From the IMG/VR virus record IMGVR_UViG_3300034072_001729, positions 1 to 24,338 of that record: DNA of 24,338 nucleotides. The stretch is one strand, 5' to 3'. The translations under genes were made by a program, and so were the position numbers. Below, piece by piece: positions 3,357 to 21,578 of the stretch; positions within the stretch are counted from its first letter, which is position 1; the number at the start of each line of letters is the position of its first letter. The DNA comes from a virus. The notes beneath the pieces are model-generated. The model was not told where the DNA came from. It worked only from the letters and a program-made list of their open reading frames with translations, and did no database searches.

Positions 3357-5341
3357 GCTTTTACGATTAAAAATTCTAATTCTCTAGAGATTAATTCTTC
3401 TGTGCTGTCTTTTTTGTTAATCTTATTGGTGGTGAGAATTCCTCGGTAATATTCTCCGTCTATTTCTAGAAAAATCATTCTACTTTCTGCCAATTCATCC
3501 AGAATATCTATTTCTGTGCGTAAAATGAAGCCTGAATTTAAACTCAAAGCTTTGGTTTTATCAGAATCGAATTTTTCTTCGTTCCCCGAAATTACATTTC
3601 TAGAAATGGTATGCGTATAATCATCATAAATTCTATAGTCTCCAGTAATCGTAAGCCAATCTGGAACTAAATTAGAATTAAAGAAAGCTACATTGATATG
3701 CTGATTATTATTTGGCATGGTGATAATCTTGATAGGATTTACACCAATATTGAACTGTTTTACAGTTGGCCAAGTAAAAAGTTGATCTGCAGTTTCAGTT
3801 TTGAGTACTGCAGCAACTTTTTCTGGAAGCACTGCGTAATTGGTGAAATCTGCACCAAAATCATTAATATCTGTAACTCCAGTGATGTAGGAGAAAATGA
3901 CTTTAGAATCTGCGCTTCTTCGTCTGATAAGATTATTGGTGAGAACAGGATAAGCCAATGGTTTTTTCCCTGCGAAAAATTTTAGATTATTTAGAGCTTC
4001 AGAATTCTTTACTTGATAATCTGCATCTAGTTCTTCTACATTCCCCGAAACGGTAACTGGATGATACCATAATTTAGCATTGAAAAAATTAGGAATATTA
4101 GCTTCTGCGAGAATATTGTAGATGTATTTTAAGTAATACGTTTGCAGAATAGCTCCTAAATCCATTTCGGCTTTTCCTTCAAGATAAGGTACTACGTAAG
4201 AACGTTCTACGGTTTTGGTTTCCAAAGGCGTTTTAAAAGTAATGGTAAGATTTGCACGAACAAAAACTCCTGTTGCATCTATTTTATAGAATTTCATCAG
4301 TTTTTTATCCAAACAGAAATTAAAATCACTGCTCAATTGTGAGCTGAAAAAATTGATAACTGAAAGCGAAACTGGAATGGTAATGGTTTTAGTCCCATCA
4401 AACGTAATGACAATATCACCAGAATAGTCTCCAATGTTAAGTGTAGAAGAATTTACAGTGTTTACAGTAATTGTACCGCCACTGCTTCCAGAACTTGGCG
4501 AAACGGTAAGAAAACTAGGCGCAGTAATGGTAAATGCTTTTCCGCTAGGATTGGCTAAATTGAAAGTTGCTGATTTGGTTTCTGACTTACTTTTTACCAA
4601 TTCGAACTCCAGTTCATTGATATTGGCGGTGATGTCATCATTTTCTAAAATAGAAACTTTTAAAGCAAAATTTGCAATGGTATTTCCTGCACTGTTTTTA
4701 AGAACCGCTTGAATTCCTAAAGGATTGCTAGTTACTGTTGCTAATTGCGCCAAGTCTGCTCCTGCTATAATATTGGTAGATGTAGCAAAAGAAGCATCTT
4801 GAATGGCAAAATACTGCGCAGATTGCGTAAGCTGTACCGAACAGTTTTCTGCTGCAGTATTATTGAGCAAAGAAATGACTGTATCTCCTGCAAAAGTATT
4901 GGTGCTTTTTAGATACTGGATTTCGTAGATATATTGGTTTGGAAGGATTGAAGTATTAGGTTTTACTGTGATATTTATGTAATGAGTAATTGTCTCTAAA
5001 ATAAATTCATTTCCTTCATTATCTTCTCCAGTAATATAAAATATAATCCCTGCTTCGTAATTTCCTGTGCTTAGTAAATTAATATCAACTAAATCAATAT
5101 CTACTGAAGCAGAAACAGATGCAGTGTTAATCTCTTGATTTATGAGTACATCTGTACCTGATAGAGTAACCCAGTCTTGAAGCCCTGAATTTATAACATA
5201 TTTAAGTTTATGATTAGTATAATCTGGATAAAGTTCATAAATAAAACCACCAAAATTTAAAACTAAACTTTCGGCAGTTGGTGTAGTTCCGCCAATTTGG
5301 TATTCTAGGCTTTGAGAAGCGATGTTAAGTGATAGTGCCAT
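3353..5341 (-). CDS. Distal tail protein with N-terminal Ig/BACON-like repeats
   Basis: This 662-aa protein follows the tape measure with a one-base TAATG overlap. Residues about 1-335 look like three tandem beta-sandwich repeats. The third (about 240-335) carries the FLTVSPSSGSSGGT pattern and a GDYSGDIVIT ending typical of BACON/Ig-like domains, which are common in Bacteroidota surface and phage proteins and often implicated in glycan or mucin binding. The C-terminal half (about 340-662) has no such repeats and resembles a distal-tail/baseplate structural module. I infer a tail-tip protein decorated with adhesion domains, which would touch the host surface. The exact repeat limits are estimated by eye. 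Confidence 0.62.
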   Translation of the reverse strand: MALSLNIASQSLEYQIGGTTPTAESLVLNFGGFIYELYPDYTNHKLKYVINSGLQDWVTLSGTDVLINQEINTASVSASVDIDLVDINLLSTGNYEAGIIFYITGEDNEGNEFILETITHYINITVKPNTSILPNQYIYEIQYLKSTNTFAGDTVISLLNNTAAENCSVQLTQSAQYFAIQDASFATSTNIIAGADLAQLATVTSNPLGIQAVLKNSAGNTIANFALKVSILENDDITANINELEFELVKSKSETKSATFNLANPSGKAFTITAPSFLTVSPSSGSSGGTITVNTVNSSTLNIGDYSGDIVITFDGTKTITIPVSLSVINFFSSQLSSDFNFCLDKKLMKFYKIDATGVFVRANLTITFKTPLETKTVERSYVVPYLEGKAEMDLGAILQTYYLKYIYNILAEANIPNFFNAKLWYHPVTVSGNVEELDADYQVKNSEALNNLKFFAGKKPLAYPVLTNNLIRRRSADSKVIFSYITGVTDINDFGADFTNYAVLPEKVAAVLKTETADQLFTWPTVKQFNIGVNPIKIITMPNNNQHINVAFFNSNLVPDWLTITGDYRIYDDYTHTISRNVISGNEEKFDSDKTKALSLNSGFILRTEIDILDELAESRMIFLEIDGEYYRGILTTNKINKKDSTEELISRELEFLIVKA

Positions 5342-8300
5342 TATCTTTTATTTTTTTCGATTATACGGTTTCTTTCTTCTTTGGTTTCTTCTATTTGTTC
5401 TACTGCTTTGTAGAGATTTTCCCAACGAGCAATCACTCCGAATTTGCTAAGTGTTTCCAGAGATTGGTTTACATTTTCCATTACCTGCATGGCTTTTATA
5501 AGAATTTCATCTGAAGAATTATTGCTATTAGGAATCATGCCAGTTTCATAACCTTTCACACGCTGAATTTCTCTCATGTATTCCTGCTGAATGGTTGGGT
5601 TAATTCTTTTGAGCGTTTTAGAATCTACTACCAATTCTGTTTTATTTCCTTCGCCTACGAGAACGGTAGGTTCCGAGTAAAGACCAGCTCTAAGAGATTT
5701 TCTACGAGCATTGAACATTTTGCCGTCTTGCTGACGAATGGTAGGGTAGTAACCGTCTTCTGCTCCTGGTACTTCTGGCAAAGGTTGGCGCATGATAGTC
5801 GCTACTTGTAAAGCTCCTAATGCTCCCACAACACCAGACATGATAGTTGCAGTGATACCAAAATCAGCCTTTGGAAAATCTGCCCAAATTCCCATAATGG
5901 CCATTGCGGTATTTGCAATAGTTTGAGCAATCTGCATATCACGTTGGCGTTTTGCTTGTTTGTACTCTATCTCTGCTTTCTTACGGTCTAGTTCTTCATC
6001 TGCTTGAAGCGTAAGTTTCTTATACGTCTCTTGGTTAATATAACCAGCATCTAGTTCTGCTTTTAATCTTCTTTTCTTACGGTCAGAATTTACTTCGTAT
6101 CTGCGTAATTCTGCCTGCATATTTGCCTGTTGGAAAGAGTAGAATTGTGCATACATTTGTTGTGCAACTTGTACCGCTAAACCAATTTTTTTAATATTGG
6201 TAGCTAAGTCATCAGTTTTGGTAAACATCGCTTTCCACTGGTCTTCATTAAGCCCTAGAATATCTGTAGAACCACCACCTGTTAAGCTAGAAAAATCTGC
6301 TTTTTCTTTGCTATTGTTACCACTTTCACCATTTTTAAGCTTCTGAATTTCTGCTAAAAGTTCAGTGATTTTTTGCTTATATTTTTCTATTTGGTCTAAT
6401 TGCTCTGGAGAGAATGACATTGGCATTGTTGCCATTACTGCATTATACTCCGCAATTTTAGTCTGTAAGAAAATAACCTGGTCTTCTAGTGCTTTTTGCT
6501 GATAGTATTTCTCTATTTCTTTCCTACCTTCTTCCCATGTTCTAATCAATCGTAGAGAATCATCTGAATAACCTAGACTTGCAAGAAACATCTTTTGCTG
6601 TTCTACAGTAGTGTTTTCTGCAAGTGCCTGATTGGTTAGATTTTTATAATTTTCTAAATTTTTAGATAATTGTTCTTCTTGTTTTTTAAAGGCTTCCTGT
6701 TGTGCTTTTTGGTTTAATGCACCAATTTTGAAAGCGGTAGTTTCGGCAGCTAAAAGTTTTAATTTATCTAGTGAAGCATTATTTTCTATCCATTGTTCTT
6801 TCAGAGCTTCAAACTTTGTTTTTTCGGCTCCTTTTGATTTGGCGATGATTTCATCTAATTTTGTGAACTCATCATCAGAAATTCTTTTCTTATCTAATTC
6901 TGCTTTCTTACGGTCTTCTGCTGCTAAAATTTCTAATAATTCTCTTTGATACCAATCATTTTTTAAATTGGCAAGAGTTTCTTGCTTATCAATTTCTAGG
7001 TCTATTTCTAATTGGTTGGCTTTTTCTATCTCATCAAGCATACGGTTTTGAAGCTTCTGAAATTCTGAAACTTTATTCTCTGTGGTGTTTTTGCTTGATG
7101 ATGATGAAGTACTACCAAAATCTGTTTTATAATTAGATTCTGATGTAGTAGAATTAGTAGATGTAGAAAGCGGGTCTCCTTTAGAAATTATTTTGGTATA
7201 TGGTTCTAAATCTTTATTCCTTTGTTTATATAAATTCTTCAAATTTTCAGTTTCAGCTTGGAATCTTGCTTTGGCAGATGCTTGGTTTTCTGATTTGCTT
7301 ACTTTTTGGTAGGTTCCACCGCCAGTCATTCCACTTCCTTGGATAAAAACTGTCTCATCTTTAGCATTTCTATAATCTATATTAGCCTGCTCCATTCGTT
7401 TTCTGATGGCTTCTTCTTCATCTAAGTAAGTTTGACTGATTTGGTCAATCTTATTTTGAGCGGCTTTTGCTTTAGCAGAATCTATAATTGCCTGTTTTAA
7501 TTTATTATAAGCTCCTGCCGCTTTACCAACTAGAAAATCTTCTGTTTTTAGATTATCAAAATAACCAGGATATTTAGATTTTAAATCATCTAGTATTTTA
7601 ATTCTTTCTTTTTCTTCAATGTTTTTATTGACTAATTTTTTATAGGCTTGGTCTAGAGCATTAGTTTCTGAAATTGCATTTTTCTTACCTTCCAGCATTG
7701 CATCATTAAACTCACGCTTTGATTTGGTAGCTTCTTGGTTACGCTTATAAAGCAAATAAGTAGCAGCTGCTAATGCAGTTACCAAAGCAATGACAGCTCC
7801 AATAGGATTTGCAGCCATAGCTAAGTTCCATCTAGTTTGAGCAGCAGTCTGTAAATTGGTGGCAACAGTAGAGAAACCTAGTAATCCTGTTAATTTACCT
7901 ATTAGGAAAGAACCTGCTGCAATAGAACCATTCCATAAGGTTTGTAAGGTAGTGCTTAAAGCTAACCTTACATTTCTAGCTTTTTCTATAACATCTAATG
8001 CAATATTTTTTACAATAGAATCTTTAATCAGATTATTGTAAACTGCAATTGCTGTACTTACACTCACGAATGCTGTAACTCCTATCACTACTATTGCAAA
8101 TAAATCTGATAGTGTTCTTCTGAATAGCGATGTTTTCTTTTCTGCTTCATTGCCTACGCCTAGAAGATTGGCAACTGCGCTAATCATCATATTCAAACCT
8201 TTAGCTATTGTTTCAGAAGAAAAAGCACCTACAATAGATTTTTTAACTTTCTCAAATATTGCAGCAGTATTGGTGTTTACACGGTTAAATTCTGTCTGTA

Positions 8301-9639
8301 AAGAAGTTCCTTCTGCTAATGCTTGGTTAGATGTTTCGATAGACTTACGGAAACGGTCTGTGCTTTCTGAAGCTGCACCAATTACGGAGATTACTTCGGC
8401 ATCATTAAGTTTTAAGAACTCCAGCATTTTAGAAACTTCGGTAGCATCTAAACCTTTGGCTCCTTCTGCAAATTTTAAGAAGAACTGTAAAGTATCTTGA
8501 TTGATTAGTTTCTTTACTTCTTCTTCTGAGATACGCATTACTTCTGCAAACTTCTTGGTTTCAGTTGCTGCAACTCTCACAAATTTATTGTAACCAGAAG
8601 AAGCACGTTCTGCATTCAATCCGCTTTCTTCAAATGCTGCACCTAATCCTAGTGTTTCTGCAATGCTTGGTTTTAATTTCTCAGGAAGCGTACCCACTCT
8701 CAATGCAAAATCAGAAACGTTTTCTGCACTGGCTGTACCTTGGTTATCTAATTCATTAAGTGCAGAACCTATATCATTGATAGCATCTGCCACGTTTTGG
8801 TCTTTGGTTTCTTTGAAGATGCCTTTTAGCTTCCCTAACTTATTGGCAACTGCTTCTACACCGCCAGAGAAGTTGTCTCCTAATGCTACAAATGCTTTGT
8901 CTACTTCTTGGGTAAATGCTTTAATCTCTGCTTTTGGTACGCCTAACTTACCACCTACTTCGGCAATCTTTAGTAGGTCCATGTTCGATGTTCTGGTCTT
9001 GAACTCTGAGAATGATTTAGTAAGTTCCTTTACTTCTTCATTGGTCATTCCTGTAGCTTTGCCAACCTTAGTCTGTGCATCTACAAGTTTATTATTATAA
9101 TCTATAACTCCCTGCACAGATAACGCAACACCTGCCATCGTAGCAATGACAGCAGTAGCAATCCCAGAATACTGATTGAACTTATCTGCAAGACTAGAGA
9201 TAGATGTACCAGAAGCTTTGGCTCCATTGCGCAACTCTAGCATTCTAGATTCTACACCTTTCAAATCTCCCTGTACTCTTTTGAAATCAGCAGAGTTGGG
9301 GTTCATATTATTCATGGTGAGTTTAAGGTCTTGCGCTTTCTTACGCAACTGCTCCATGGTAAGCCTAGAGTTATCCATAGACTTTATTTGCTCATCAATC
9401 TTCTTTTTATTATCAGCAATGGAAATAGTAAGTCGCTCTATCTCTGCCTTATTCGCTTTGTATTCTGCTGTATCCTGTTTGCGCTGTTTAGATAGCTCTT
9501 TTTGCTTATCACTAAGGTCTTTTATTCTAAGTGATAAGGTTTTATTAGCACTTTCTAAGTCTAGGATTTCTTTTTGAGCTTCGTCACCATTTACGATGAC
9601 CTTTAACTTCATGAGTTCGTCTGAGATAACTTTTGCCAT
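5341..9639 (-). CDS. Phage tail tape measure protein
   Basis: This 1432-aa protein sets tail length and probably forms the DNA channel at injection. The first ~130 residues form a long coiled coil. A TP901-type tape-measure core follows at about 150-500 (repeated VANKLG, LNELDNQGTASAENVSDFA-like motifs). Hydrophobic stretches at about 525-545 and 605-630 could insert in the membrane, and a second coiled coil covers about 840-1200. The C-terminal module (..DGYYPTIRQQDGK.. and ..VLVGEGNKTELVVD..) is typical of Bacteroidota phages. The frame opens at a TTG at 9705, but ATG 9639 gives the natural start M-A-K-V-I-S and lies 17 nt after a -7-like element. No tail-chaperone frameshift gene precedes it; its upstream neighbour is a regulatory cassette. 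Confidence 0.93.
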   Translation of the reverse strand: MAKVISDELMKLKVIVNGDEAQKEILDLESANKTLSLRIKDLSDKQKELSKQRKQDTAEYKANKAEIERLTISIADNKKKIDEQIKSMDNSRLTMEQLRKKAQDLKLTMNNMNPNSADFKRVQGDLKGVESRMLELRNGAKASGTSISSLADKFNQYSGIATAVIATMAGVALSVQGVIDYNNKLVDAQTKVGKATGMTNEEVKELTKSFSEFKTRTSNMDLLKIAEVGGKLGVPKAEIKAFTQEVDKAFVALGDNFSGGVEAVANKLGKLKGIFKETKDQNVADAINDIGSALNELDNQGTASAENVSDFALRVGTLPEKLKPSIAETLGLGAAFEESGLNAERASSGYNKFVRVAATETKKFAEVMRISEEEVKKLINQDTLQFFLKFAEGAKGLDATEVSKMLEFLKLNDAEVISVIGAASESTDRFRKSIETSNQALAEGTSLQTEFNRVNTNTAAIFEKVKKSIVGAFSSETIAKGLNMMISAVANLLGVGNEAEKKTSLFRRTLSDLFAIVVIGVTAFVSVSTAIAVYNNLIKDSIVKNIALDVIEKARNVRLALSTTLQTLWNGSIAAGSFLIGKLTGLLGFSTVATNLQTAAQTRWNLAMAANPIGAVIALVTALAAATYLLYKRNQEATKSKREFNDAMLEGKKNAISETNALDQAYKKLVNKNIEEKERIKILDDLKSKYPGYFDNLKTEDFLVGKAAGAYNKLKQAIIDSAKAKAAQNKIDQISQTYLDEEEAIRKRMEQANIDYRNAKDETVFIQGSGMTGGGTYQKVSKSENQASAKARFQAETENLKNLYKQRNKDLEPYTKIISKGDPLSTSTNSTTSESNYKTDFGSTSSSSSKNTTENKVSEFQKLQNRMLDEIEKANQLEIDLEIDKQETLANLKNDWYQRELLEILAAEDRKKAELDKKRISDDEFTKLDEIIAKSKGAEKTKFEALKEQWIENNASLDKLKLLAAETTAFKIGALNQKAQQEAFKKQEEQLSKNLENYKNLTNQALAENTTVEQQKMFLASLGYSDDSLRLIRTWEEGRKEIEKYYQQKALEDQVIFLQTKIAEYNAVMATMPMSFSPEQLDQIEKYKQKITELLAEIQKLKNGESGNNSKEKADFSSLTGGGSTDILGLNEDQWKAMFTKTDDLATNIKKIGLAVQVAQQMYAQFYSFQQANMQAELRRYEVNSDRKKRRLKAELDAGYINQETYKKLTLQADEELDRKKAEIEYKQAKRQRDMQIAQTIANTAMAIMGIWADFPKADFGITATIMSGVVGALGALQVATIMRQPLPEVPGAEDGYYPTIRQQDGKMFNARRKSLRAGLYSEPTVLVGEGNKTELVVDSKTLKRINPTIQQEYMREIQRVKGYETGMIPNSNNSSDEILIKAMQVMENVNQSLETLSKFGVIARWENLYKAVEQIEETKEERNRIIEKNKR

Positions 9640-9656
9640 TACAGTAATATTTACTG

Positions 9657-9698
9657 CAATTCTACTGACAGTCAGAGGAAAAAACTGTAACACTAAAA
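9657..9698 (-). promoter_or_regulatory. Putative phage-specific promoter of the tail operon
   Basis: The minus strand carries the 20-bp word TTTTAGTGTTACAGTTTTTT (+ coordinates 9679-9698), which recurs exactly at 19160-19179. In both places the ACAG is followed after exactly 20 nt by an octamer matching TAnnTTTG at 7 of 8 positions; here it is TAGAATTG (9657-9664). The conserved block replaces the usual -33 TTTG, suggesting activator- or phage-factor-dependent late transcription. The tape-measure ATG is 17 nt downstream. A short palindrome, CTGAC-A-GTCAG (9665-9675), lies in the spacer. Confidence 0.6.
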
Positions 9699-10087
9699 TT
9701 TTCAATATGAATTAAAACCCACCACTATGGTGGTAAGATTTAATTCTTCAATAGGAATTCTCAGCACCATTAGTGGTGCTACGCACACATGGTGCAAAGA
9801 ATGTAGTATTGGTGGGCGCAAAACCATATTTCCGAAAAAACCATATATAGGCAACTGCAAAAACGATTCTTCGCGGCGTCGGCTCTGAATGATACAAAAC
9901 CGCTGTTTTTATGTTAAATTCACGTTAAATCATTGTTTATCAGTGTTTAAGCGTTTTTTTAATTTAACATTAACAGCAGTTTTTTAATATTTTGGAAGAA
10001 TTTTTTATTTTTTGGGAATGTTCTGAAACTTGATAGAATAAACCAAAATTTTATAGCGAAATATTGATGAATAAAAAGTTTAGGCAT
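9699..10087. other. Non-coding, structured spacer before the tail operon
   Basis: No credible ORF is present on either strand. It holds two similar hairpins, CCACCA/TGGTGG (9719-9724/9728-9733) and AGCACCA/TGGTGCT (9763-9769/9774-9780), and further TGGTGC and TTGGTGGG words near 9790 and 9811. Two copies of AAACCATAT occur near 9821 and 9838. There is a short GC-rich island (9870-9885). A large imperfect inverted repeat pairs 9896-9920 with 9961-9983, including an exact ATGTTAAATT/AATTTAACAT. It could be an origin, a packaging site, a regulatory RNA region or the scar of a cassette insertion; none is shown. Confidence 0.5.
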
Positions 10088-10113
10088 AAAAAAAACTTTA
10101 GCAACTGCTAAAG
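10088..10113 (-). terminator. Intrinsic terminator (second of tandem pair)
   Basis: CTTTAGC (10096-10102) pairs with GCTAAAG (10107-10113) around AACT. It is followed in the minus direction by eight U (A run 10088-10095). It backs up the terminator at 10130-10167. Confidence 0.85.
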
Positions 10114-10129
10114 CTTCTGATTTTGCTAC

Positions 10130-10167
10130 AAAAAAAAATCTCCCTCATTTGTGACGAAATGAGAGAG
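10130..10167 (-). terminator. Intrinsic terminator of the helicase/PP-loop/ParB cassette
   Basis: CTCCCTCATTT (10140-10150) pairs with AAATGAGAGAG (10157-10167). On the transcript this is an 11-bp stem with one G-U pair, followed by nine U (A run 10130-10138). It lies about 60 nt after the last cassette gene. Confidence 0.9.
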
Positions 10168-10196
10168 AAAACCCACAAAAGTTACTCCGTGAGTAC

Positions 10197-10232
10197 TACA
10201 CTGCAAATATAGTGTAAATTTTTATTATCAAA
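10197..10232 (-). promoter_or_regulatory. Leftward promoter with overlapping operator, possible small RNA
   Basis: On the minus strand TTTG (+ 10229-10232), a 17-bp spacer and TATATTTG (10204-10211) match the Bacteroidota promoter. A dyad, TACACT-N8-AGTGTA (10197-10216), covers the -7 element and the likely start site. The -33 overlaps the end of the XRE gene. Transcripts from here would meet the terminator at 10167-10130 within about 70 nt, so the product is either a small RNA or read-through towards the tail genes. Confidence 0.6.
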
Positions 10233-10452
10233 TTTTCTCTTTATCAATTTTTAATTCTGCATCCAGAACTAGTAAAATTAAGTATAATTGGTCTGCGTTA
10301 GGCGAAAATCTGTTATTTTCTATCCTCGCAATGGTATTTCTAGCGAAACCTACTTTTTCTGCCAATTCTTCTTGAGTCCATCCTTTTTGAACTCTTTTTC
10401 GCTGAATGATTTCTGCTACTTTTTGGCGTTTTTCTGCAATTAATTCTTTCAT
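10228..10452 (-). CDS. Small XRE-family HTH regulator
   Basis: This 74-aa protein is almost entirely one helix-turn-helix domain. Residues about 12-68 follow the XRE/Cro pattern, with WTQEELAEKVGFARNTIARIENN covering the helix-turn-helix and the next helix. There is no extra effector domain. It is the last gene of the seven-gene cassette and starts one base after the 121-aa gene stop. It is a good candidate for autoregulating the cassette through the palindromic operator at 14836-14855, or for binding the dyad at 10197-10216; the two dyads differ in sequence, so at most one is likely its main site. It could instead be an antitoxin-like regulator, but no RelE/HigB-like toxin is next to it. Confidence 0.85.
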   Translation of the reverse strand: MKELIAEKRQKVAEIIQRKRVQKGWTQEELAEKVGFARNTIARIENNRFSPNADQLYLILLVLDAELKIDKEKI

Positions 10453-10453
10453 T

Positions 10454-10819
10454 TTAATTTAAAATTGAGGTTTCGTTTTCGTCTATATTTCTGTCTTCCC
10501 ACATGAGATAAGCTTTATACCAATCGAAAGCTTGTTGCAGAAAGTCTGCATCTGTGATTTCTGGAGCCAATTCTCCGCCTGTTGCTGCCACATTATTCTG
10601 AACAATGATAAATTCAAAGGTTTCATCTTGGTAAGTGAATGTTTTTCTAGATTTTCTCCTGTTTTCTTCGTTCAAGATTGGAGTAATATCTATTTCACTG
10701 ATGACCATTATCAGGCTCAAATAGTGTGGAGAGTAAATCCACTCTACGCCTATATATTCTTTGGTAGGTTCTTCTGCCAAAAGAAACTTTGGTAATTTTA
10801 GGTCTATTATTCTTCCCAT
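10454..10819 (-). CDS. Hypothetical 121-aa protein of the cassette
   Basis: I do not recognise the family. The protein is soluble and acidic, with no signal peptide or transmembrane segment. A beta-rich centre (about 70-85, TFEFIIVQNNVAATGGEL) is followed by an acidic, aromatic stretch (about 95-112, FDWYKAYLMWED). Its start overlaps the ParB-like gene by 13 nt and it ends one base before the XRE gene, so it is translationally linked to both. Conserved linkage suggests an accessory factor of the ParB/PP-loop module, which is inference only. Confidence 0.7.
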   Translation of the reverse strand: MGRIIDLKLPKFLLAEEPTKEYIGVEWIYSPHYLSLIMVISEIDITPILNEENRRKSRKTFTYQDETFEFIIVQNNVAATGGELAPEITDADFLQQAFDWYKAYLMWEDRNIDENETSILN

Positions 10820-11325
10820 GATTCTGAAAAATTTTTATTTTGAAATAATTCTGCTAAACCAGATAACTGTTTTAAACGCAATAATTCATCTGCATCCATT
10901 CCTATTTGTTTCATGATCCAATCGTCACCCATTCCAGACTTTGTAAGCTCTGAAACAATATTAGTCATTAATTCTATACTGTGAGAACCTCTAGCTCTAT
11001 TATGTCTAATAGTAGAAGCCATTCTATTATTCAAATCTTTTTTTATTTGAGAAACTGGCAAACATCCATTTTCTCTCTCAAAAATTCTCTTGCTAAAATG
11101 TTTAGAATTAGGGTTCATAAGAGAATATCTATGAAAGCCATCTACTACTTCAAAAACTCCATCTTCTGGAACAAAATAACAGACTACTGGCATTGTATAT
11201 CCATCTTCCCAAATAGAAAGCTCTAATAGTTTCATTTCTGGTGGAGCAACTGAATTTGGGTTATAAGAATTAGCTCTTATTTTTTCTATTGGCACTGGTA
11301 TTACATTGTAAACTGGTGAACTCAT
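10807..11325 (-). CDS. ParB N-terminal-domain protein (IbrB-like)
   Basis: This 172-aa protein carries the ParB/Srx-type fold. An N-terminal strand has the I-x-x-N-x-Y-N-P-N pattern (about 16-24) and a helix LELSIWEDGYTMPVV (34-48) follows. The nucleotide-binding motif is DGFHR (62-66), in place of the usual GERR, and the second motif is STIRHNRARG (104-113), which matches the IbrB subgroup. A predicted HTH-like tail follows (about 125-160). IbrB proteins are encoded next to PAPS-reductase-like IbrA, exactly as here, where the ATG overlaps the stop of the PP-loop gene. ParB folds can act as CTPases, nucleases or phosphotransferases; the activity here is unknown. DGFHR also resembles the DGQHR motif of DndB-like proteins. 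Confidence 0.85.
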   Translation of the reverse strand: MSSPVYNVIPVPIEKIRANSYNPNSVAPPEMKLLELSIWEDGYTMPVVCYFVPEDGVFEVVDGFHRYSLMNPNSKHFSKRIFERENGCLPVSQIKKDLNNRMASTIRHNRARGSHSIELMTNIVSELTKSGMGDDWIMKQIGMDADELLRLKQLSGLAELFQNKNFSESWEE

Positions 11326-12602
11326 AATATATTTTTGTATTTATCAATTATATTTTTTCTTCTTGTCATTTCTTGTTTTGTCAATCCAAAACCAAGCGTT
11401 TTACACGCTGTATCATTTTTCATTATAGCGATGCACATTCGCTTATAAGTTGGCAGTAAATTCGGATTTTTAATATTCGTTTCATCTAAATATTCTTTGA
11501 ATTTTATCACATTATATTCTCGCGAATAATTAACGTTATTTTTAGGCTTTCCTAAATTTTCAAAATCTAAAGAATCATCTAATTCTTTTACTACATCTAC
11601 TGGAAGCGCACCTCCTTTTTCTAACCAATACGCAAAAGAAGTTTTCAGTTTTCTTAGGTAATTTTCTCTAGTTTCTTCTGGGAGTGTATCAAGAAGAAAA
11701 TACATATATTCTTTCCAAGTAAAATGAGCAGGTTTTGTGATGGAGTTCCAACCCATCGCTGTGGTTCCACCGTATAAACCTGTGAAATTTACACCGTTTA
11801 CTCTGCCAATTAATTTGCCCCAATTATTAGGATCTATTACTTTGTAAAGCTTCAAAGATTCCTGTGCAGCATCATTAAACGGAGAAGCAACTCTCATAGA
11901 ATTAAGCGGAACTCCTGCTTGATACATCAAATCATATAATTTATTATAATCATATCCAAATTTTGCATTAGCTATCCAAATATCATCTACTAACCAATCA
12001 TAAATTGGGTAAGCATTAATGCAATTTTTAGAAATTAAAGTAGTCCATTTCTTAGATTTATACTCATTTCTATCATCAAATTTATTGACTGCTTTATATC
12101 TGTGCAAACTTTCTTGAGTTCTTATTCCAATGAAAAAAGCAGTCTTTTTATTTTTAGAAATTTCTTTGGCAAATTTCAGATTAAATTCATAGTCCGAAAC
12201 TTCATAATCAAAACTAAATTGATGATTTTCTTCATTGATAGAATTTTCTGGTAATTCTCTACACCAAAGATGTTTTTCTTCTGCTTTCCATGGTTGCCAA
12301 TAACTCTGAAACATAGAAGTAGAGCATTGTGCTTTTATAGGAAGGCAAACCCAATATTGCTTTACTTCTTTTGGTAGATTTTCAAAAGTTCTAGTCACGT
12401 AATCCGTAGTCATTTGATACTGTGCTTCATAATCCATGTGATAAACTGAAACTTTATCCAGTTGATTTATTTTTTTGGCATAATCTAAAACTAAATTGAG
12501 CATTACTCCAGAATCTTTACCACCAGAAAAAGAAACAACTATTTGCTCAAATTCTTCAAAAATAAAGGCAATTCTTTTTATTGCAGCTTCGTAAACATTC
12601 AT
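11322..12602 (-). CDS. PAPS-reductase-like PP-loop ATPase (IbrA-like)
   Basis: This 426-aa protein belongs to the adenine-nucleotide alpha-hydrolase/PP-loop superfamily. The PP-loop SGGKDS is at 26-31 behind a hydrophobic strand (IVVSF), and the following HMDYEAQY (about 55-62) matches the second nucleotide-contact region. The length exceeds a plain PAPS reductase. The C-terminal ~180 residues form an extra domain as in the DUF3440/IbrA group, and no C-terminal ECGLH reductase motif is seen, so assimilatory sulfate reduction is unlikely. Related PP-loop enzymes activate nucleic-acid bases or DNA backbone for sulfur transfer (DndC, TtcA, MnmA). It overlaps both helicase and ParB-like genes by four bases. 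I infer nucleotide-activation chemistry on DNA or RNA, with substrate unknown. Confidence 0.88.
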   Translation of the reverse strand: MNVYEAAIKRIAFIFEEFEQIVVSFSGGKDSGVMLNLVLDYAKKINQLDKVSVYHMDYEAQYQMTTDYVTRTFENLPKEVKQYWVCLPIKAQCSTSMFQSYWQPWKAEEKHLWCRELPENSINEENHQFSFDYEVSDYEFNLKFAKEISKNKKTAFFIGIRTQESLHRYKAVNKFDDRNEYKSKKWTTLISKNCINAYPIYDWLVDDIWIANAKFGYDYNKLYDLMYQAGVPLNSMRVASPFNDAAQESLKLYKVIDPNNWGKLIGRVNGVNFTGLYGGTTAMGWNSITKPAHFTWKEYMYFLLDTLPEETRENYLRKLKTSFAYWLEKGGALPVDVVKELDDSLDFENLGKPKNNVNYSREYNVIKFKEYLDETNIKNPNLLPTYKRMCIAIMKNDTACKTLGFGLTKQEMTRRKNIIDKYKNIL

Positions 12603-13816
12603 AAAACTTCTTTTAATTGTTCTTTACTTATTTTTTTTAGGTACTCAGATATTCCGAGTTTCTTTTTATTGTTTTCAAAAATTAAATTTTCTAAACCTAC
12701 ATCGCCAATCAATCGCAGATATCGGCAGTCATTTTCTTGTCCTGTTCGGTAGTTCCTGTGTTGGCTCTGCACTACATCTCCCCAATCGAAAGTCTGGTCA
12801 AAATAAACAGTGAAAGGTTTATCCTGCAAGTTCAGAGAAAGGCTTCCTGTTTTATAGTTTAGAACCGTAGCTTTCGGGAAACGTTTCTTACATTCTTCTG
12901 CACTGGAGATGAATTTTGTAAAAATAATGGTTTTGCTTTCATCAGTTATCCAATCTTCTACTTTCTGAAATTTATTTTCGGAGCAACAATACTCATGCTG
13001 CATCTTCATGGTCATTTCTAGGAAAATATTGTTGTTCATCATCATCAATTTTTCATCATCCAGATATTTTTCTTTTAGAAAATTATACCGTTCTTTTTCT
13101 TCTTCTGAAAGTTGATAACTCTCATTTTCAAAAACCTGCTGAACATTCAGTTCTAAATCGCATTCATAAACATATTCCCCGATAAGCGAGTAGAGATAGT
13201 CTATATTTTCGTAACCAGTGATAAATTCTTTTGAATATTCTTTCCATGTTCCGAAACGCTTCGTGATGGTTGTGTACTTGCAAAATGTATTTTTAAATTC
13301 TGCCAAATTCATTCTTAGAATTTCTGGGTCAAGGAATTGAAATTGTGCCCAAATATCCAATAAATCTCTAGTGATGGGTTCTCCGTTTAGAATCAGTTTA
13401 TATTCACACCATTTCGCCATTTCCAGAAGTCTTTGGGTGCGTTTTGCTTCGTGATTTTTTATCTTAATGCTTTCGTCTACGATTAAGTAAGGATTAAGAG
13501 CATGACGAATTTTATTATAAACCTGCAAATATTGTCTATCTGAAGACTGAATGGTTTCTACACCTATGTAAATGACATTTTCGCATTGGAAACCTCCCCA
13601 TTTTGCTATCTCGTCTTTAATGGAAGGAACATTTTCTGCAATTGGCTTGATGCTTCGCAATGGAGCCACCCAAACTACTAAATCTATATCTTTTACTGCA
13701 TTTACCAATTCTAGCGCAACTCTAGTCTTACCAGTTCCCATCTTCATAAACAAAGCTATTACCTTGTAAGGTAGTTGCTTTGTTAGTGCTTTTTCTTGGT
13801 TGGGGAGAAGATTCAT
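12599..13816 (-). CDS. SNF2-type superfamily 2 helicase/ATPase, minimal
   Basis: This 405-aa protein holds both RecA lobes and little else. Motifs: Q-like LLPNQ (3-7), Walker A GTGKT (27-31), motif Ia VAPLRS (50-55), motif II DES (114-116; the family is usually DEAH or DEAQ), motif III-like NGEPI (144-148), and lobe 2 with IIFTKF (about 294-299) and motif VI QSQHRNYRTGQ (350-360). The QxxHRxxRxGQ form is the SNF2 signature of a double-stranded-DNA translocase rather than an unwinding helicase. It overlaps neighbours by four bases on each side. Phages use such proteins in replication, recombination or remodelling, but the pairing with PP-loop and ParB-like genes suggests it moves that machinery on DNA. 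Confidence 0.9.
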   Translation of the reverse strand: MNLLPNQEKALTKQLPYKVIALFMKMGTGKTRVALELVNAVKDIDLVVWVAPLRSIKPIAENVPSIKDEIAKWGGFQCENVIYIGVETIQSSDRQYLQVYNKIRHALNPYLIVDESIKIKNHEAKRTQRLLEMAKWCEYKLILNGEPITRDLLDIWAQFQFLDPEILRMNLAEFKNTFCKYTTITKRFGTWKEYSKEFITGYENIDYLYSLIGEYVYECDLELNVQQVFENESYQLSEEEKERYNFLKEKYLDDEKLMMMNNNIFLEMTMKMQHEYCCSENKFQKVEDWITDESKTIIFTKFISSAEECKKRFPKATVLNYKTGSLSLNLQDKPFTVYFDQTFDWGDVVQSQHRNYRTGQENDCRYLRLIGDVGLENLIFENNKKKLGISEYLKKISKEQLKEVL

Positions 13817-14097
13817 TTTTTTAATTTTGGTATTGAGTTATTTTCTAAAGGTTCTATTTTTTCTGGAGTGTGGTGTTCTACTCTAAAAGTAATGTCTTCA
13901 TCTGGTGGTTCGTGTCCTAATTTTTCTTTGTAAAGCCAATCTGGAATCTGAACATTTCCACCTAATTTTTTATTGACAATTAAACTTTTGCAAAATCTTT
14001 TAGGCAACCAAATTTCTATATGATGCAACTTCACCAAGTAAGCTTTTGCGGTTGCCGTTTCGTACTTGGTGAAGCGTAGAATTGCCCAATTACTCAT
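13813..14097 (-). CDS. Hypothetical 94-aa phage-type protein
   Basis: I do not recognise a named family. The core about 5-45 reads as a small beta-rich domain, with T-A-K-A-Y-L-V-K, H-I-E-I-W-L-P-K-R-F and a following basic strand, a pattern seen in small phage proteins of unknown function. The C-terminus is Pro-, Glu- and His-rich and looks disordered. The start overlaps the previous gene by 8 nt and the stop overlaps the helicase ATG, so it belongs to the cassette. There is no signal peptide or membrane segment. Confidence 0.68.
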   Translation of the reverse strand: MSNWAILRFTKYETATAKAYLVKLHHIEIWLPKRFCKSLIVNKKLGGNVQIPDWLYKEKLGHEPPDEDITFRVEHHTPEKIEPLENNSIPKLKK

Positions 14098-14779
14098 TGA
14101 TATAAGTTAGTGGTGCGAATTTTTTAAGCAAACTTTTTTCTCCTTCTGTCTGAAAAAGCACTTTTACGTTATCTTCTGTTTCTTCTATAATTTCACCTAA
14201 ACCAAATCTAGCATGTCTCACTTTTTTACCATTTCCAAGTTCGTAAACTTTAGATTTTTGCTCATTAGATTCTACAGGTTTATCAGCTTCTTTGCTTTTA
14301 GCTTCTGCTAAAGCTTTTTCCTTATTTTTTGCATAAACAATATTCAGTTCTTCTTGCAGTTTTCCGCCGAAAACTTTTTCTGCATAATCGCCAAATTTAG
14401 AATAGAATTTCATTTCTTCGTACCATTTTGGTTCTGCATCTGAATTTTCTTTTACCAAAACATCAGCAGTTCCTTCTTCTTCATTGATTTTATAATCAAT
14501 TAATTCTAAATTAAGTTGAGAAATGATATTTTCTATTCTAGTAGTAACTTCTTCAACTACTTTTTCTTCTTGAGATTCAATCCATTGATAAGATTGAGAA
14601 GGACAGTCTATATTACAAGAAACTTTGTAGTCTCCATTTTTATCTACATAAACATACGTTTTGGTAGACATTTTTTTAGTATTGTAACCTTCGTCTAAGT
14701 AGATTCTTTTAAGATCTCCTTTTACCCAAAGTTTTCCGTTAAGTTTTTCAGCTAATTGTTCGAAAGTGATAGTTTTCAT
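14090..14779 (-). CDS. Two-domain protein with UvrD/PcrA C-terminal Tudor-like domain
   Basis: This 229-aa protein is the first gene of the cassette. The N-terminal ~60 residues form a small beta domain (LWVKGDLKRIYL, KTYVYVDKNGDYKVSC) of no family I know. An acidic helical linker follows at about 65-175. Residues about 183-225 match the Tudor-like fold at the C-terminus of PcrA/UvrD helicases: KVRHARFGLGEI, then VKVLF, then KSLLKKFAPL. In PcrA/UvrD this fold contacts RNA polymerase or partner proteins. Here it occurs without a helicase on the same chain, but an SNF2-type ATPase is encoded two genes later, so an adaptor role is plausible. The ATG lies about 50 nt after the predicted start site of the 14834-14864 promoter. 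Confidence 0.72.
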   Translation of the reverse strand: MKTITFEQLAEKLNGKLWVKGDLKRIYLDEGYNTKKMSTKTYVYVDKNGDYKVSCNIDCPSQSYQWIESQEEKVVEEVTTRIENIISQLNLELIDYKINEEEGTADVLVKENSDAEPKWYEEMKFYSKFGDYAEKVFGGKLQEELNIVYAKNKEKALAEAKSKEADKPVESNEQKSKVYELGNGKKVRHARFGLGEIIEETEDNVKVLFQTEGEKSLLKKFAPLTYINE

Positions 14780-14833
14780 AATCTTATCGCCGTATTACTG
14801 TTGCCGCCAGTTCTATTTGTTAATTTTCTCCTA

Positions 14834-14864
14834 CAAAGATACATATAAGTATCTTATTTACAAA
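14834..14864 (-). promoter_or_regulatory. Perfect Bacteroidota promoter of the seven-gene cassette
   Basis: On the minus strand TTTG (+ 14861-14864), a 19-bp spacer and TATCTTTG (14834-14841) match the TTTG-N19-TAnnTTTG consensus exactly. It lies in the 118-bp gap between the large terminase stop (14898) and the ATG at 14779, so the cassette can be expressed independently of packaging genes, possibly in the lysogen. Confidence 0.85.
14836..14855. promoter_or_regulatory. Palindromic operator inside the cassette promoter
   Basis: AAGATAC (14836-14842) and GTATCTT (14849-14855) form a perfect 7-bp inverted repeat with a 6-bp spacer. It covers most of the -7 element and the adjoining spacer, so a bound protein would block RNA polymerase. 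The XRE protein at the end of the same operon is the obvious candidate; no binding evidence is available. Confidence 0.6.
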
Positions 14865-14897
14865 AATAAAAGTGTTAAAATTTTGTTAAAATTAAAA

Positions 14898-16607
14898 TTA
14901 AATTATTCCTGGGTCTCCCAAAATTACAAATTTATTCTTTTGGATGTTCACAAATTCTGGGCGATAGATAAAATATTTAAAAGCATCACTCATATTCGTA
15001 GAATACATCGGTCTCTTGTGCATTGGGAGCTTCTCTGAAGACTTATCTTTAAAAATCTGACGTACACCTTGATTATTGGCTTTTACTATCTGTTTTGCCA
15101 CGTTCATACTCGAAATAAGTTGTTGGCATTGGTATTTGTCAATATGTATTTTCGGCAAAGCTTTGTAAACTTCACCCAGCATATTGTTTACTAATGTAAA
15201 TTCCTCTTGTTGAGTGATGGTAGATTGATTTCTACTCATCAATTCCACAGTCCAACCAGTTGGCGTTCCGTCTTCGTATTTTTCTAAGAAATTTTTGAGT
15301 TCTCCTGCCCAGTCACGCCCATGTTGCACATAAGCGTTTCCGCTTCTATCATAGTACATTTTGATGTATTTGTACTGATGATTGCGGAAGAAATTTAGAA
15401 ATTTATTAGCGAGATGTCTCGCCGTTTCTTTCTCGGAAATAAGCGTGTAAAAATTCTTCAGTAAATAGATGTCATTCATTTTGGTTTGACCAACTACCAT
15501 ACTCATCATATCGCCAAAATCAATTCCCATTTCTATAGGTCTATTGATGTCGCAGAAACGCAAATCTCGGCTATCTACTTCGGCATCGTCTCCAGTGTTG
15601 AAACGTGCCATATTTTCGAAGATAATACCATCGCTGTAGATATGCTTTTCCTCGTCTAGATTAATGTAGAATTTTTGTCCTGCTTCTACTTTTGGTGGCA
15701 TACTTAGAATTGAGGTATTAAATTCTTCTTCGCCTAAAGAAGCGAGTGAAGTTTTAAAAAAATCGAGCCTCAATACATCTACGTTTACAAAAGAAGAAGC
15801 TACGTAAAAAAATGTAGAATTCTGACGAAGTTGATGATGCAACACCGCCAGTTTTTTAATCTGATTTTCTGCTGCTTTGGTCAGTCTCGCATTTCTTTTT
15901 CTGGAATAGTATAAATGTTTCTTTCGAGCTTCGTTTAGCTGTAATGAAATTTGGAGCAACATTTTAAGTTGCTTTAAGTCCATATCTTTTGCACGTTCCA
16001 GAATCCAATCATATTCTCCAGGCATAATGATATTAGGGTAGTCGGTAGTAAATGTAGCACCTAAATAATACGGAGAATGTCCGAATAGAGTAGCTGGACC
16101 ACGCAAAGCGGGAAACAACTTATCTATACGTTTTTTCTCTATATATTTACTCTCATCGCCGAAAATATGCTGATAAGAGTTCCCTGCACCAGAACTGGGC
16201 GTATCCATAGAAATATAATTGAAAAAACTCCCTGTAATCGTAGAAATGGTATGCTTATAAGTGTGCGGAGATTTATAAGGAAGTTTAAAATGTTTTGGCG
16301 GTGGATCATCTACTACGTAATGAACTCCTTTTCGCCAACCGTTTCGTTCCCAACCTTCCATCAAGGCAACGGAAATATTTTTCAAAATATTGGTATAAGT
16401 ATCTGCCACCAAAGCAAGGTAAGAACCGGGCATGTCATAACAAACATTCTGACTTCTTTTGGCTAAAAAATCAGAGGTTTTGGCAGTTGCTCTGCCGAGA
16501 ATTAAAAAAGCATCTTTCGGCTCCATAATATCTACTAGAGCCGAAAGCCAATTGCTGTATAAAAGTTCTTGGTCTATAAATTTATCATTTACGAGAATCT
16601 TCTCCAT
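14898..16607 (-). CDS. terL: Phage terminase large subunit
   Basis: This 569-aa protein is the ATP-driven packaging motor and nuclease. The ATPase domain has a Walker A of unusual form, GRATAKT (38-44), behind the strand AFLIL, and Walker B HIFGDES (147-153). A coupling region follows at about 195-215. The nuclease domain shows the RNase H-like first strand MGIDFGD with Asp363, a second strand ending MYYDRSG, and a late acidic site in MSDAFKYF near residue 548. Length and motif order fit large terminases of Bacteroidota phages. It overlaps the preceding gene by 23 nt. No portal gene follows; the next operon is the helicase cassette, which is unusual because terL and portal are normally adjacent. 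Confidence 0.9.
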   Translation of the reverse strand: MEKILVNDKFIDQELLYSNWLSALVDIMEPKDAFLILGRATAKTSDFLAKRSQNVCYDMPGSYLALVADTYTNILKNISVALMEGWERNGWRKGVHYVVDDPPPKHFKLPYKSPHTYKHTISTITGSFFNYISMDTPSSGAGNSYQHIFGDESKYIEKKRIDKLFPALRGPATLFGHSPYYLGATFTTDYPNIIMPGEYDWILERAKDMDLKQLKMLLQISLQLNEARKKHLYYSRKRNARLTKAAENQIKKLAVLHHQLRQNSTFFYVASSFVNVDVLRLDFFKTSLASLGEEEFNTSILSMPPKVEAGQKFYINLDEEKHIYSDGIIFENMARFNTGDDAEVDSRDLRFCDINRPIEMGIDFGDMMSMVVGQTKMNDIYLLKNFYTLISEKETARHLANKFLNFFRNHQYKYIKMYYDRSGNAYVQHGRDWAGELKNFLEKYEDGTPTGWTVELMSRNQSTITQQEEFTLVNNMLGEVYKALPKIHIDKYQCQQLISSMNVAKQIVKANNQGVRQIFKDKSSEKLPMHKRPMYSTNMSDAFKYFIYRPEFVNIQKNKFVILGDPGII

Positions 16608-20555: not shown

Positions 20556-21578
20556 TTATTGTAATCCTAGAATTTTTATAATTTCTTCTTCAGAGAAAAT
20601 CATTATTCCATAATCATTGGCCTTTTCAAGTTTTTTCCAACCAGCATAATTTCCTTTGATGATATAATGAGTTTTTTCTGTTATTATAGTATCAATATCA
20701 GCTCCTGATTCATAAAGAATTTCTGCTAACTCATTCCTATCTGGAAAGCGATTAAATTCGCCTGTTATTACTATTTTCTTTTTGAAAAACATATTAATAT
20801 CTTCTGCATCTTTTTTTGGACGAAGATATTTACTGTCAATTTTTCTTGATTGTAGTTCTTTTAAAGTTTTAGAATCTAAATAATATTTTTTATCTGGATT
20901 TTGTTCATCTGATGCATATAAATTAACAAATACATCTAAATAATCATCTTTATAAACTATATCAGAAATTTTAGCGATGTGTTTAAATTTTATTATTTCA
21001 GAAATTTCTTCTATATCTGTTCTTGGAACATATCCGATTAAATTTTTTTCTTGAAAAATTGCTATTGCATTTTTATCATAAATATTATTAGGTTCTCTTT
21101 TTAAAATTAATGTCTCACCTTCTGATATATTAAAAATTAGATTCTCTTTCCTATTCTCTATATGAACGCCAGCAATTTTAAAAGTTGTTTTGAATTTATA
21201 ATTATTATCAATTTCACTTTCATTTATTTGATAATTTTCTGATTTTATTTTTTCTAAAACTTTAAGATAAAAGTTATAGTTAATATATCCTTTATCTGAT
21301 TTTTCTCTAATAGCCCTTTGATAAATTATATTTTCTACTTTATTTAAATAAAATAGTTGATATTCAATTTGATAAGCGTATTCTCTTGGACAATCTCTAA
21401 TAAAATTTAAAAAAGTGATAGAATCTACAATTTTAGGATTTGGAACGTCTAGAGTTACAGTCTTTTCACCTGTTTTATAATTATTTTCAATTGTATTTCC
21501 GTAGTTATCTTTTTGCGGTTTAGAAGCTATAAAAATTATAATTATAAAAACTACAAAAATTATTATTAAAAACTCCAT
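20556..21578 (-). CDS. Membrane-anchored HIRAN-BRCT protein
   Basis: This 340-aa protein has three recognisable parts. Residues 3-19 are one hydrophobic N-terminal anchor. Residues about 131-221 match the HIRAN domain: FKIAGVHIE, LILKREPNNIYDKNAIAIF and LIGYVP. HIRAN binds DNA 3' ends in HLTF-type proteins and occurs in many bacterial mobile-element proteins. Residues about 264-338 match a BRCT domain of the NAD-ligase/RFC1 kind (KKIVITGEF, ETGAD-like ESGAD, GWKKLEKANDYGI). The region 25-125 is helical and unassigned. No nuclease or helicase motif is seen. It lies 1 nt after an exported small protein, in a unit with its own promoter and terminator, so it is probably a lysogeny-expressed moron. 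A DNA-sensing role at the membrane, perhaps against incoming DNA, is inference. Confidence 0.8.
   Translation of the reverse strand: MEFLIIIFVVFIIIIFIASKPQKDNYGNTIENNYKTGEKTVTLDVPNPKIVDSITFLNFIRDCPREYAYQIEYQLFYLNKVENIIYQRAIREKSDKGYINYNFYLKVLEKIKSENYQINESEIDNNYKFKTTFKIAGVHIENRKENLIFNISEGETLILKREPNNIYDKNAIAIFQEKNLIGYVPRTDIEEISEIIKFKHIAKISDIVYKDDYLDVFVNLYASDEQNPDKKYYLDSKTLKELQSRKIDSKYLRPKKDAEDINMFFKKKIVITGEFNRFPDRNELAEILYESGADIDTIITEKTHYIIKGNYAGWKKLEKANDYGIMIFSEEEIIKILGLQ

Follow-up and report, generated by a model that had tools for sequence, protein, structure and literature searches.

Why would a phage place an SNF2-family ATPase and the enzyme pair IbrA and IbrB between its terminase and its tape measure? 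The question is raised by the virus record IMGVR_UViG_3300034072_001729, whose 24,338 bases (here called the window) belong to a phage of Bacteroidota-type bacteria. Seven minus-strand genes, read from g7 to g1, fill the interval between the large terminase gene (TerL) and the tape-measure gene (TMP). An initial annotation, made from the letters alone, had read them as a compact cassette of accessory genes that includes a DNA translocase, and such a cassette does recur in many genomes. Its core, an adaptor gene followed by the genes for SNF2, IbrA and IbrB, is a widespread phage module, for which we tentatively favour a role in counter-defence. In the window, the core consists of:

13813-14097, minus strand: g6, a 94-residue adaptor with a predicted beta-barrel and a disordered C-terminal tail (AlphaFold2 model and alignment)
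13813-13890, minus strand: coding region of the conserved g6 C-terminal tail, FRVEHHTPEKIEPLENNSIPKLKK (tail hidden Markov model, 8.7e-11)
12599-13816, minus strand: g5, a 405-residue SNF2-family ATPase of the clade dedicated to IbrAB (Pfam SNF2-rel_dom, 9.6e-10; clade test)
11322-12602, minus strand: g4, IbrA, a 426-residue PP-loop enzyme resembling PAPS reductase, with DUF3440 (DUF3440 7.1e-81, PAPS_reduct 1.8e-14, both above cut-offs)
10807-11325, minus strand: g3, IbrB, a 172-residue protein of the ParB/sulfiredoxin fold (phrog_2159, ParB-like, 1.8e-70)

A dedicated SNF2 clade travels with IbrA and IbrB

Loci were gathered from viral contigs, with IbrA, SNF2 and IbrB as queries, and from bacterial genomes, with IbrA as query; each search yields at most 80 loci, and the collections are biased and the contigs fragmentary. 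All three enzymes were found together at 109 loci, a count in which some contigs, retrieved by more than one query, appear twice, and in all 109 they lie on one strand. The window's order, SNF2-IbrA-IbrB, prevails (97 loci), followed by IbrA-IbrB-SNF2 (10) and SNF2-IbrB-IbrA (2), and the commonest junction between module genes is a 4-nt overlap. Carriers include phages of Flavobacterium, Streptococcus, Lactobacillus and Fusobacterium. The initial annotation had let its case hang on whether these genes ever co-occur elsewhere; helicase, PP-loop and ParB-like genes do so widely. We found no paper that treats SNF2 together with IbrAB in the searchable literature, outside which lie most subscription journals and bioRxiv preprints.

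The motifs first read from the sequence are all in place: SGGKDS in g4, DGFHR and IRHNRARG in g3, and QSQHRNYRTGQ in g5, where the helicase motif GTGKT is also present. By profile, g5 matches the Sulfolobus SNF2/Rad54 structure 1z63 (1.5e-28). In a FastTree phylogeny, all non-redundant IbrAB-linked SNF2 proteins (71/71) fall into a single clade with a support of 1.0. The clade has two further members without linked IbrAB, and both contigs end beside the SNF2 gene (L064, L163). Among newly fetched SNF2-anchored loci, IbrAB accompanies 21 of 24 high-scoring SNF2 proteins, the other three being at contig ends, and none of 55 lower-scoring phage SNF2 proteins fetched by similarity. As judged from phylogeny and gene neighbourhood, this SNF2 clade is dedicated, that is, genetically tied, to the IbrA-IbrB pair.

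Several other gene arrangements came to light around IbrAB. At 19 SNF2-less loci (L219:7580-7987 and 18 others), a conserved protein of about 135 residues precedes IbrAB; by eye it resembles a GNAT acetyltransferase, and it has no Pfam match above cut-off. A protein of about 140 residues with no assigned family (L158:2420-2851 and relatives) adjoins IbrAB at 34 SNF2-less loci. An apparently degenerate SNF2 protein, with Walker A lost as judged by eye and no Pfam match, lies upstream of IbrA at three loci (L251:6742-7983). In Fusobacterium phage phiFN37 (L053:6001-12468), IbrAB-SNF2 adjoins a dpd-like set of ParB, queuine tRNA-ribosyltransferase (TGT) and queuosine-transporter genes.

Diverse adaptors share a C-terminal tail

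The AlphaFold2 model of g6 has a six-stranded beta-barrel at residues ~4-60, with a predicted local distance difference test score (pLDDT) of about 90 for residues 11-60; beyond residue 60, the pLDDT drops to 55-68 and the tail is predicted to be disordered. A confidently modelled barrel followed by a low-confidence tail is what would be expected of a protein carrying a docking peptide. A fold search with g6 gave no significant PDB match and hit only uncharacterised small phage proteins. The tail, ~25 residues long, follows roughly the consensus hxIExHxPEKxEPKENNxIxxLKK. Its model finds 85 C-termini among 21,312 open reading frames (ORFs; E < 0.06), all near an IbrAB-type SNF2 gene and on the same strand. 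Among the ORFs searched, the tail is absent where IbrAB occurs without SNF2, and where other SNF2 genes occur without IbrAB. A tblastn search with the 25-residue consensus gave no result, and we did not find the tail described in the part of the literature that is searchable.

The tail signal is not circular, because models built from one adaptor family recover the tails of other families, and because loci outside the model yield tails as well. The model from adaptor family 0 alone finds the g6 tail of the window at 6.8e-8, and among 3,687 ORFs from unseen loci there are exactly three tail matches, each upstream of an IbrAB-linked SNF2 gene. This cross-family training and these unseen loci rule out chance as the origin of the tail. 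We also considered whether the tail is a by-product of translational coupling with SNF2. This is unlikely: some tail genes stop over 150 bp upstream, divergence is greatest at third codon positions, and the tailed gene of L170 stands ahead of IbrA, with SNF2 located after IbrB.

The tail is attached to N-terminal domains of at least five sequence families, and two or three tailed genes stand in tandem at several loci. Families 0 and 1 have a KA...PK pattern in common and may have a single barrel fold, and by alignment the Streptococcus-type relatives show a barrel pattern of this kind and finish in a tail-like stretch. One tailed family is the C-terminal, Cas11c-type domain of Cas8c/Csd1 (Pfam, 2.4e-10). 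By sequence, this Csd1-like family is clearly different from families 0 and 1; we do not claim that all N-terminal domains are unrelated. Long proteins upstream in other loci (~380-450 residues, with acidic ends) have no Pfam match above cut-off, and a HARP-like domain in them is an impression only. From its co-occurrence with SNF2, the tail is probably a docking peptide for the ATPase. As a separate observation, the stand-alone Cas8c/Csd1 C-terminal proteins with the SNF2-linked tail (L022:198-569, L025:2103-2519 and relatives) are possible anti-CRISPR candidates.

IbrA keeps its PP-loop and has no invariant cysteine

By family and adjacency, the window's enzymes form an IbrA/IbrB pair: IbrA has both DUF3440 and PAPS_reduct, and its adjacent ParB-like partner overlaps it by 4 nt. 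IbrA retains the PP-loop residues S26, G28, K29, D30 and S31 together with other invariant residues. Its AlphaFold2 model (pLDDT 89.7) matches the folds of CysH, APS reductase, TilS, CysD and FAD synthase, mostly over the PP-loop half. Across 66 IbrA relatives, no cysteine is invariant; one of the 66 has the CysH active-site motif ECG[LIV]H, and none has the CysH-type CCxxRK. The protein scores 16.7 bits against TIGR00434, for which the cut-off is 165, and 31.5 bits against DndC, for which it is 290. Apart from this weak DndC likeness, no dndA-, dndB-, dndD- or dndE-like gene was found in the cassette or recognised among the other window proteins searched. The initial annotation had offered sulfur transfer or DNA phosphorothioation among the possible functions; these are not supported, because the PP-loop of IbrA is intact while an invariant cysteine is missing, and we reject them on cysteine conservation and the family cut-offs. 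The anti-restriction or defence function that it had named alongside is favoured by context. A PP-loop enzyme without a catalytic cysteine would better fit adenylation than persulfide transfer.

IbrB matches ParB, Noc, SbnI and free serine kinase structures by profile. It does not qualify as a partition ParB, as it scores 13.9 bits with ParB_N against a cut-off of 26.3, has no helix-turn-helix match and has no ParA gene beside it. Family profile searches recognised no DNA-binding domain in either IbrA or IbrB.

The cassette occupies a variable cargo site

The remaining parts of the cassette and its surroundings are:

14834-14865, minus strand: Bacteroidetes-type promoter, TTTTG-N19-TATCTTTG, upstream of g7
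14090-14779, minus strand: g7, 229 residues, a conserved N-terminal domain and a UvrD/PcrA-type tudor C-terminus (PF21196, 2.1e-6, above cut-off)
10454-10819, minus strand: g2, 121 residues, no assigned family (sole match phrog_18499, 1.5e-6)
10228-10452, minus strand: g1, a 74-residue XRE/HTH_3 regulator (Pfam HTH_3, 5.4e-14)
10194-10171 and 10168-10139, minus strand: two tandem terminator-like hairpins at the operon end, seen in the sequence
9706-14897, no strand: variable cargo site between TerL and TMP, seen in 12 TerL relatives with differing cargo

The gene coordinates agree with the initial annotation of a tight seven-gene run: successive junctions from g7 onwards are overlaps of 8, 4, 4, 4 and 13 nt, and a gap of 1 nt separates the last two genes. 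The promoter and, as terminator-like hairpins, the two terminators that it had placed at the ends are likewise there. The promoter is an exact match to the Bacteroidetes consensus, of which the whole window, both strands counted, holds two where 0.48 would be expected by chance. Genes like g7 lie directly upstream of g6-type adaptors in seven loci (L010, L013, L024, L030, L045, L055 and L065). No relatives of g2 were found in the loci compared, and g2 is not conserved with the module.

The flanking TerL gene (14898-16607) has no match in Pfam or PHROG and its name is taken over from the initial annotation; TMP spans 5341-9705, and an integrase gene lies at 176-1420. A query with TMP against viral contigs returned no relatives. 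In 12 of 16 TerL relatives TMP follows TerL, over an interval of 1.1-7.7 kb whose cargo differs. The annotated position between TerL and TMP is right, but its description as a place where phages normally keep capsid or tail genes needs a correction for these elements. No capsid genes are displaced by the cassette, because siblings too have TMP after TerL with variable cargo between, and in some the two genes are nearly adjacent. Among those siblings, only L301 and L304 have SNF2-IbrAB at this site; L308 instead holds SIR2 and DUF4062 there (11753-14485; the SIR2-like protein matches PADLOC LmuA at 7.5e-14 and ThsA at 1.5e-12). Between the window and L304, the SNF2 proteins are 79% identical and the IbrA proteins 34%, and the N-terminal domain of the adaptor differs while the tail is kept. 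From these mixed identities, motor, adaptor and enzyme pair have been exchanged separately; sequence comparison thus shows piecewise exchange of the module at the cargo site. Elsewhere in the window (20556-21578), a 340-residue protein combines a HIRAN domain with a BRCT domain related to LigA C-termini, an odd pairing for a phage element.

A possible role in counter-defence

What might such a module do? The reading that we favour, and hold tentatively, is that of an exchangeable accessory module of the phage for counter-defence, acting on DNA or on DNA-bound complexes. Through its tail, the adaptor (in the window the g6 beta-barrel, together with g7) would dock on the SNF2 translocase, and the adaptor would pick the target, either DNA or a DNA-bound host complex. 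IbrB, with its ParB/sulfiredoxin fold, which is a nucleotide-binding fold, and IbrA would then chemically modify the target, most likely DNA, the PP-loop of IbrA activating a carbonyl or phosphate by adenylation. The SNF2 motor would meanwhile remodel the DNA or travel along it, and the infecting phage would benefit in that its genome survives host nucleases or CRISPR. Beyond sequence and co-occurrence, these are steps that we infer.

Four observations point towards counter-defence: adjacency to the established anti-CRISPR gene acrIIA5, virulent carriers, a Cas8c-type adaptor for which there is a published precedent as a mimic, and defence-type cargo at the same site in a sibling. In Streptococcus phage D4276, acrIIA5, adaptor, SNF2, IbrA and IbrB are consecutive genes; CHPC877 shares this arrangement and has a 100% identical AcrIIA5, and in CHPC1062 acrIIA5 lies just upstream of the module. 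The carriers D4276 (PMC6060171) and FCL-2 (PMC4541368) are virulent phages, and in FCL-2 no integrase or repressor was found (PMC4541368). The link to acrIIA5, like the conserved g6 tail, the dedicated SNF2 clade and the cargo hotspot, goes beyond the initial annotation.

Other facts weigh against this reading. The acrIIA5 neighbourhood is an association only, because the gene is also present in phages, such as Sfi21, for which the SNF2 search detected no SNF2 of this kind. The Cas11c-like domain, found in 8 of the 69 distinct tailed proteins and missing from that of the window, could be a nucleic-acid-binding part and not a mimic. Phages of Mycobacterium, Arthrobacter, Bacillus and E. coli, as well as bacterial genomes, have IbrAB without this SNF2, as do about half of the IbrB-anchored loci; the pair therefore has a more general function. 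Finally, we know of no biochemical or genetic result for the module. A more specific form of the counter-defence reading, possible but doubtful as a whole, is a plug-in conflict machine, in which the SNF2 motor has a socket for the tail. Exchangeable adaptors, among them beta-barrels and a Cas11c mimic, would plug in and direct both the motor and IbrA-IbrB against various host defence complexes or DNA structures, and swapping adaptors and enzymes would change the specificity.

The same genes could instead protect the host, the prophage using them to exclude other phages. SIR2 and DUF4062 at the same site in a sibling would agree with this, as would the best PADLOC matches of the SNF2 protein, DpdE (1.4e-9) and ZorD. 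Yet the matches are partial and score no more than a weak 34 bits, not one of the seven cassette proteins matches a defence system over its full length, and virulent phages carry the module, which has no obvious toxic effector; we consider host protection rather unlikely. Gene regulation is also unlikely. Here IbrAB would co-activate prophage or host genes, with SNF2 and the tudor protein acting on transcription complexes and the XRE protein as a switch. The UvrD/PcrA-type tudor domain of g7 is suggestive, for the tudor domain of PcrA contacts RNA polymerase. XRE-like genes lie downstream of IbrB in many loci, and IbrB of E. coli reportedly raises the expression of Eib (Sandt 2002, as cited in PMC7649339). 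Set against this are the virulent carriers, FCL-2 among them, the full-length tudor protein, which among the loci compared is confined to the window and L010, and the lack of a recognised DNA-binding domain in IbrA and IbrB.

That the module modifies the DNA of the phage itself as it is replicated or packaged, any escape from defence being merely a consequence, strikes us as quite unlikely, even though its neighbours offer several hints. IbrAB adjoins the terminase in Athena, LiSara, Taranis, FCL-2 and the window, lies beside annotated methyltransferases in LiSara and 055SW001, is split by a methyltransferase-like gene in five loci, and in phiFN37 adjoins the dpd-like set described above. However, Pfam gives no match for two of the annotated methyltransferases and only weak ones for the third, no measured base modification is known to us, and IbrAB is also present in cellular chromosomes. 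It is very improbable that ordinary phage replication or recombination genes have come together here by chance. Relatives of the phrog_62 DNA helicase are indeed widespread in phages, but this SNF2 clade is found at IbrAB loci only, the position varies (the TerL-TMP interval here, the lysis-replication region in Streptococcus phages), and the module is cargo that most sibling elements lack. Already largely refuted, and hardly tenable, is an auxiliary metabolic gene for sulfate assimilation or DNA phosphorothioation. IbrA does have a PAPS_reduct domain, and genes of this type have been reported as phage auxiliary metabolic genes (PMC10434257); the missing invariant cysteine, the near absence of the CysH motif, the DndC score far under its cut-off and the lack of pathway partners all speak against it.

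Phage IbrA and IbrB are often annotated as sulfur-metabolism or virulence-regulator genes, and many can now be re-filed as the enzymes of a mobile module of several components, which brings its own SNF2 motor and a portable, presumptive docking tail. Further adaptors can be traced by means of the tail, and some could prove to be new anti-defence proteins. If counter-defence is true, a phage would direct a single ATP-driven motor to various targets by exchanging small subunits.

Relation to known systems

By profile, IbrA/IbrB of E. coli ECOR-9 and YbdN/YbdM of K-12 belong to the same families as the window's pair, a DUF3440 PP-loop protein and an adjacent ParB-like protein; unlike in the window, no SNF2 or tailed adaptor is known there. 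In K-12, ybdNM is a chromosomal operon repressed by CitR (PMC9068703), and for ECOR-9 IbrAB the reported role, as PMC7649339 relays it from Sandt 2002, is activation of eib genes. Closer to the window are the Flavobacterium phages FCL-2 and 6H and phages of S. thermophilus, which have SNF2 and IbrAB with a tailed or tail-like adaptor. In FCL-2, 6H and L304, IbrB precedes IbrA, and IbrA is ~33% identical to that of the window. IbrAB of such phages has been described as putative virulence factors (PMC4541368 for FCL-2), where SNF2 and the tail go undiscussed.

Dnd/Ssp systems have in common with the window a PP-loop enzyme of the PAPS-reductase superfamily, and DndB is a ParB-superfamily protein (PMC12839542); the window differs in that its IbrA falls below the DndC cut-off and has no conserved cysteine, and in having no DndA, DndD or DndE. 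Dpd likewise combines a ParB-like protein with an SNF2 helicase, whereas the cassette has no match to DpdA (TGT) or DpdC and its ParB-like protein matches no PADLOC model. AcrIB4, a published anti-CRISPR homologous to the Cas8b C-terminal domain (PMC13131331), resembles the stand-alone phage Cas8 C-terminal domain found among the adaptors of related loci; the Cas8-type adaptor of those loci differs from it in carrying the SNF2-linked tail, and the adaptor of the window is a beta-barrel.

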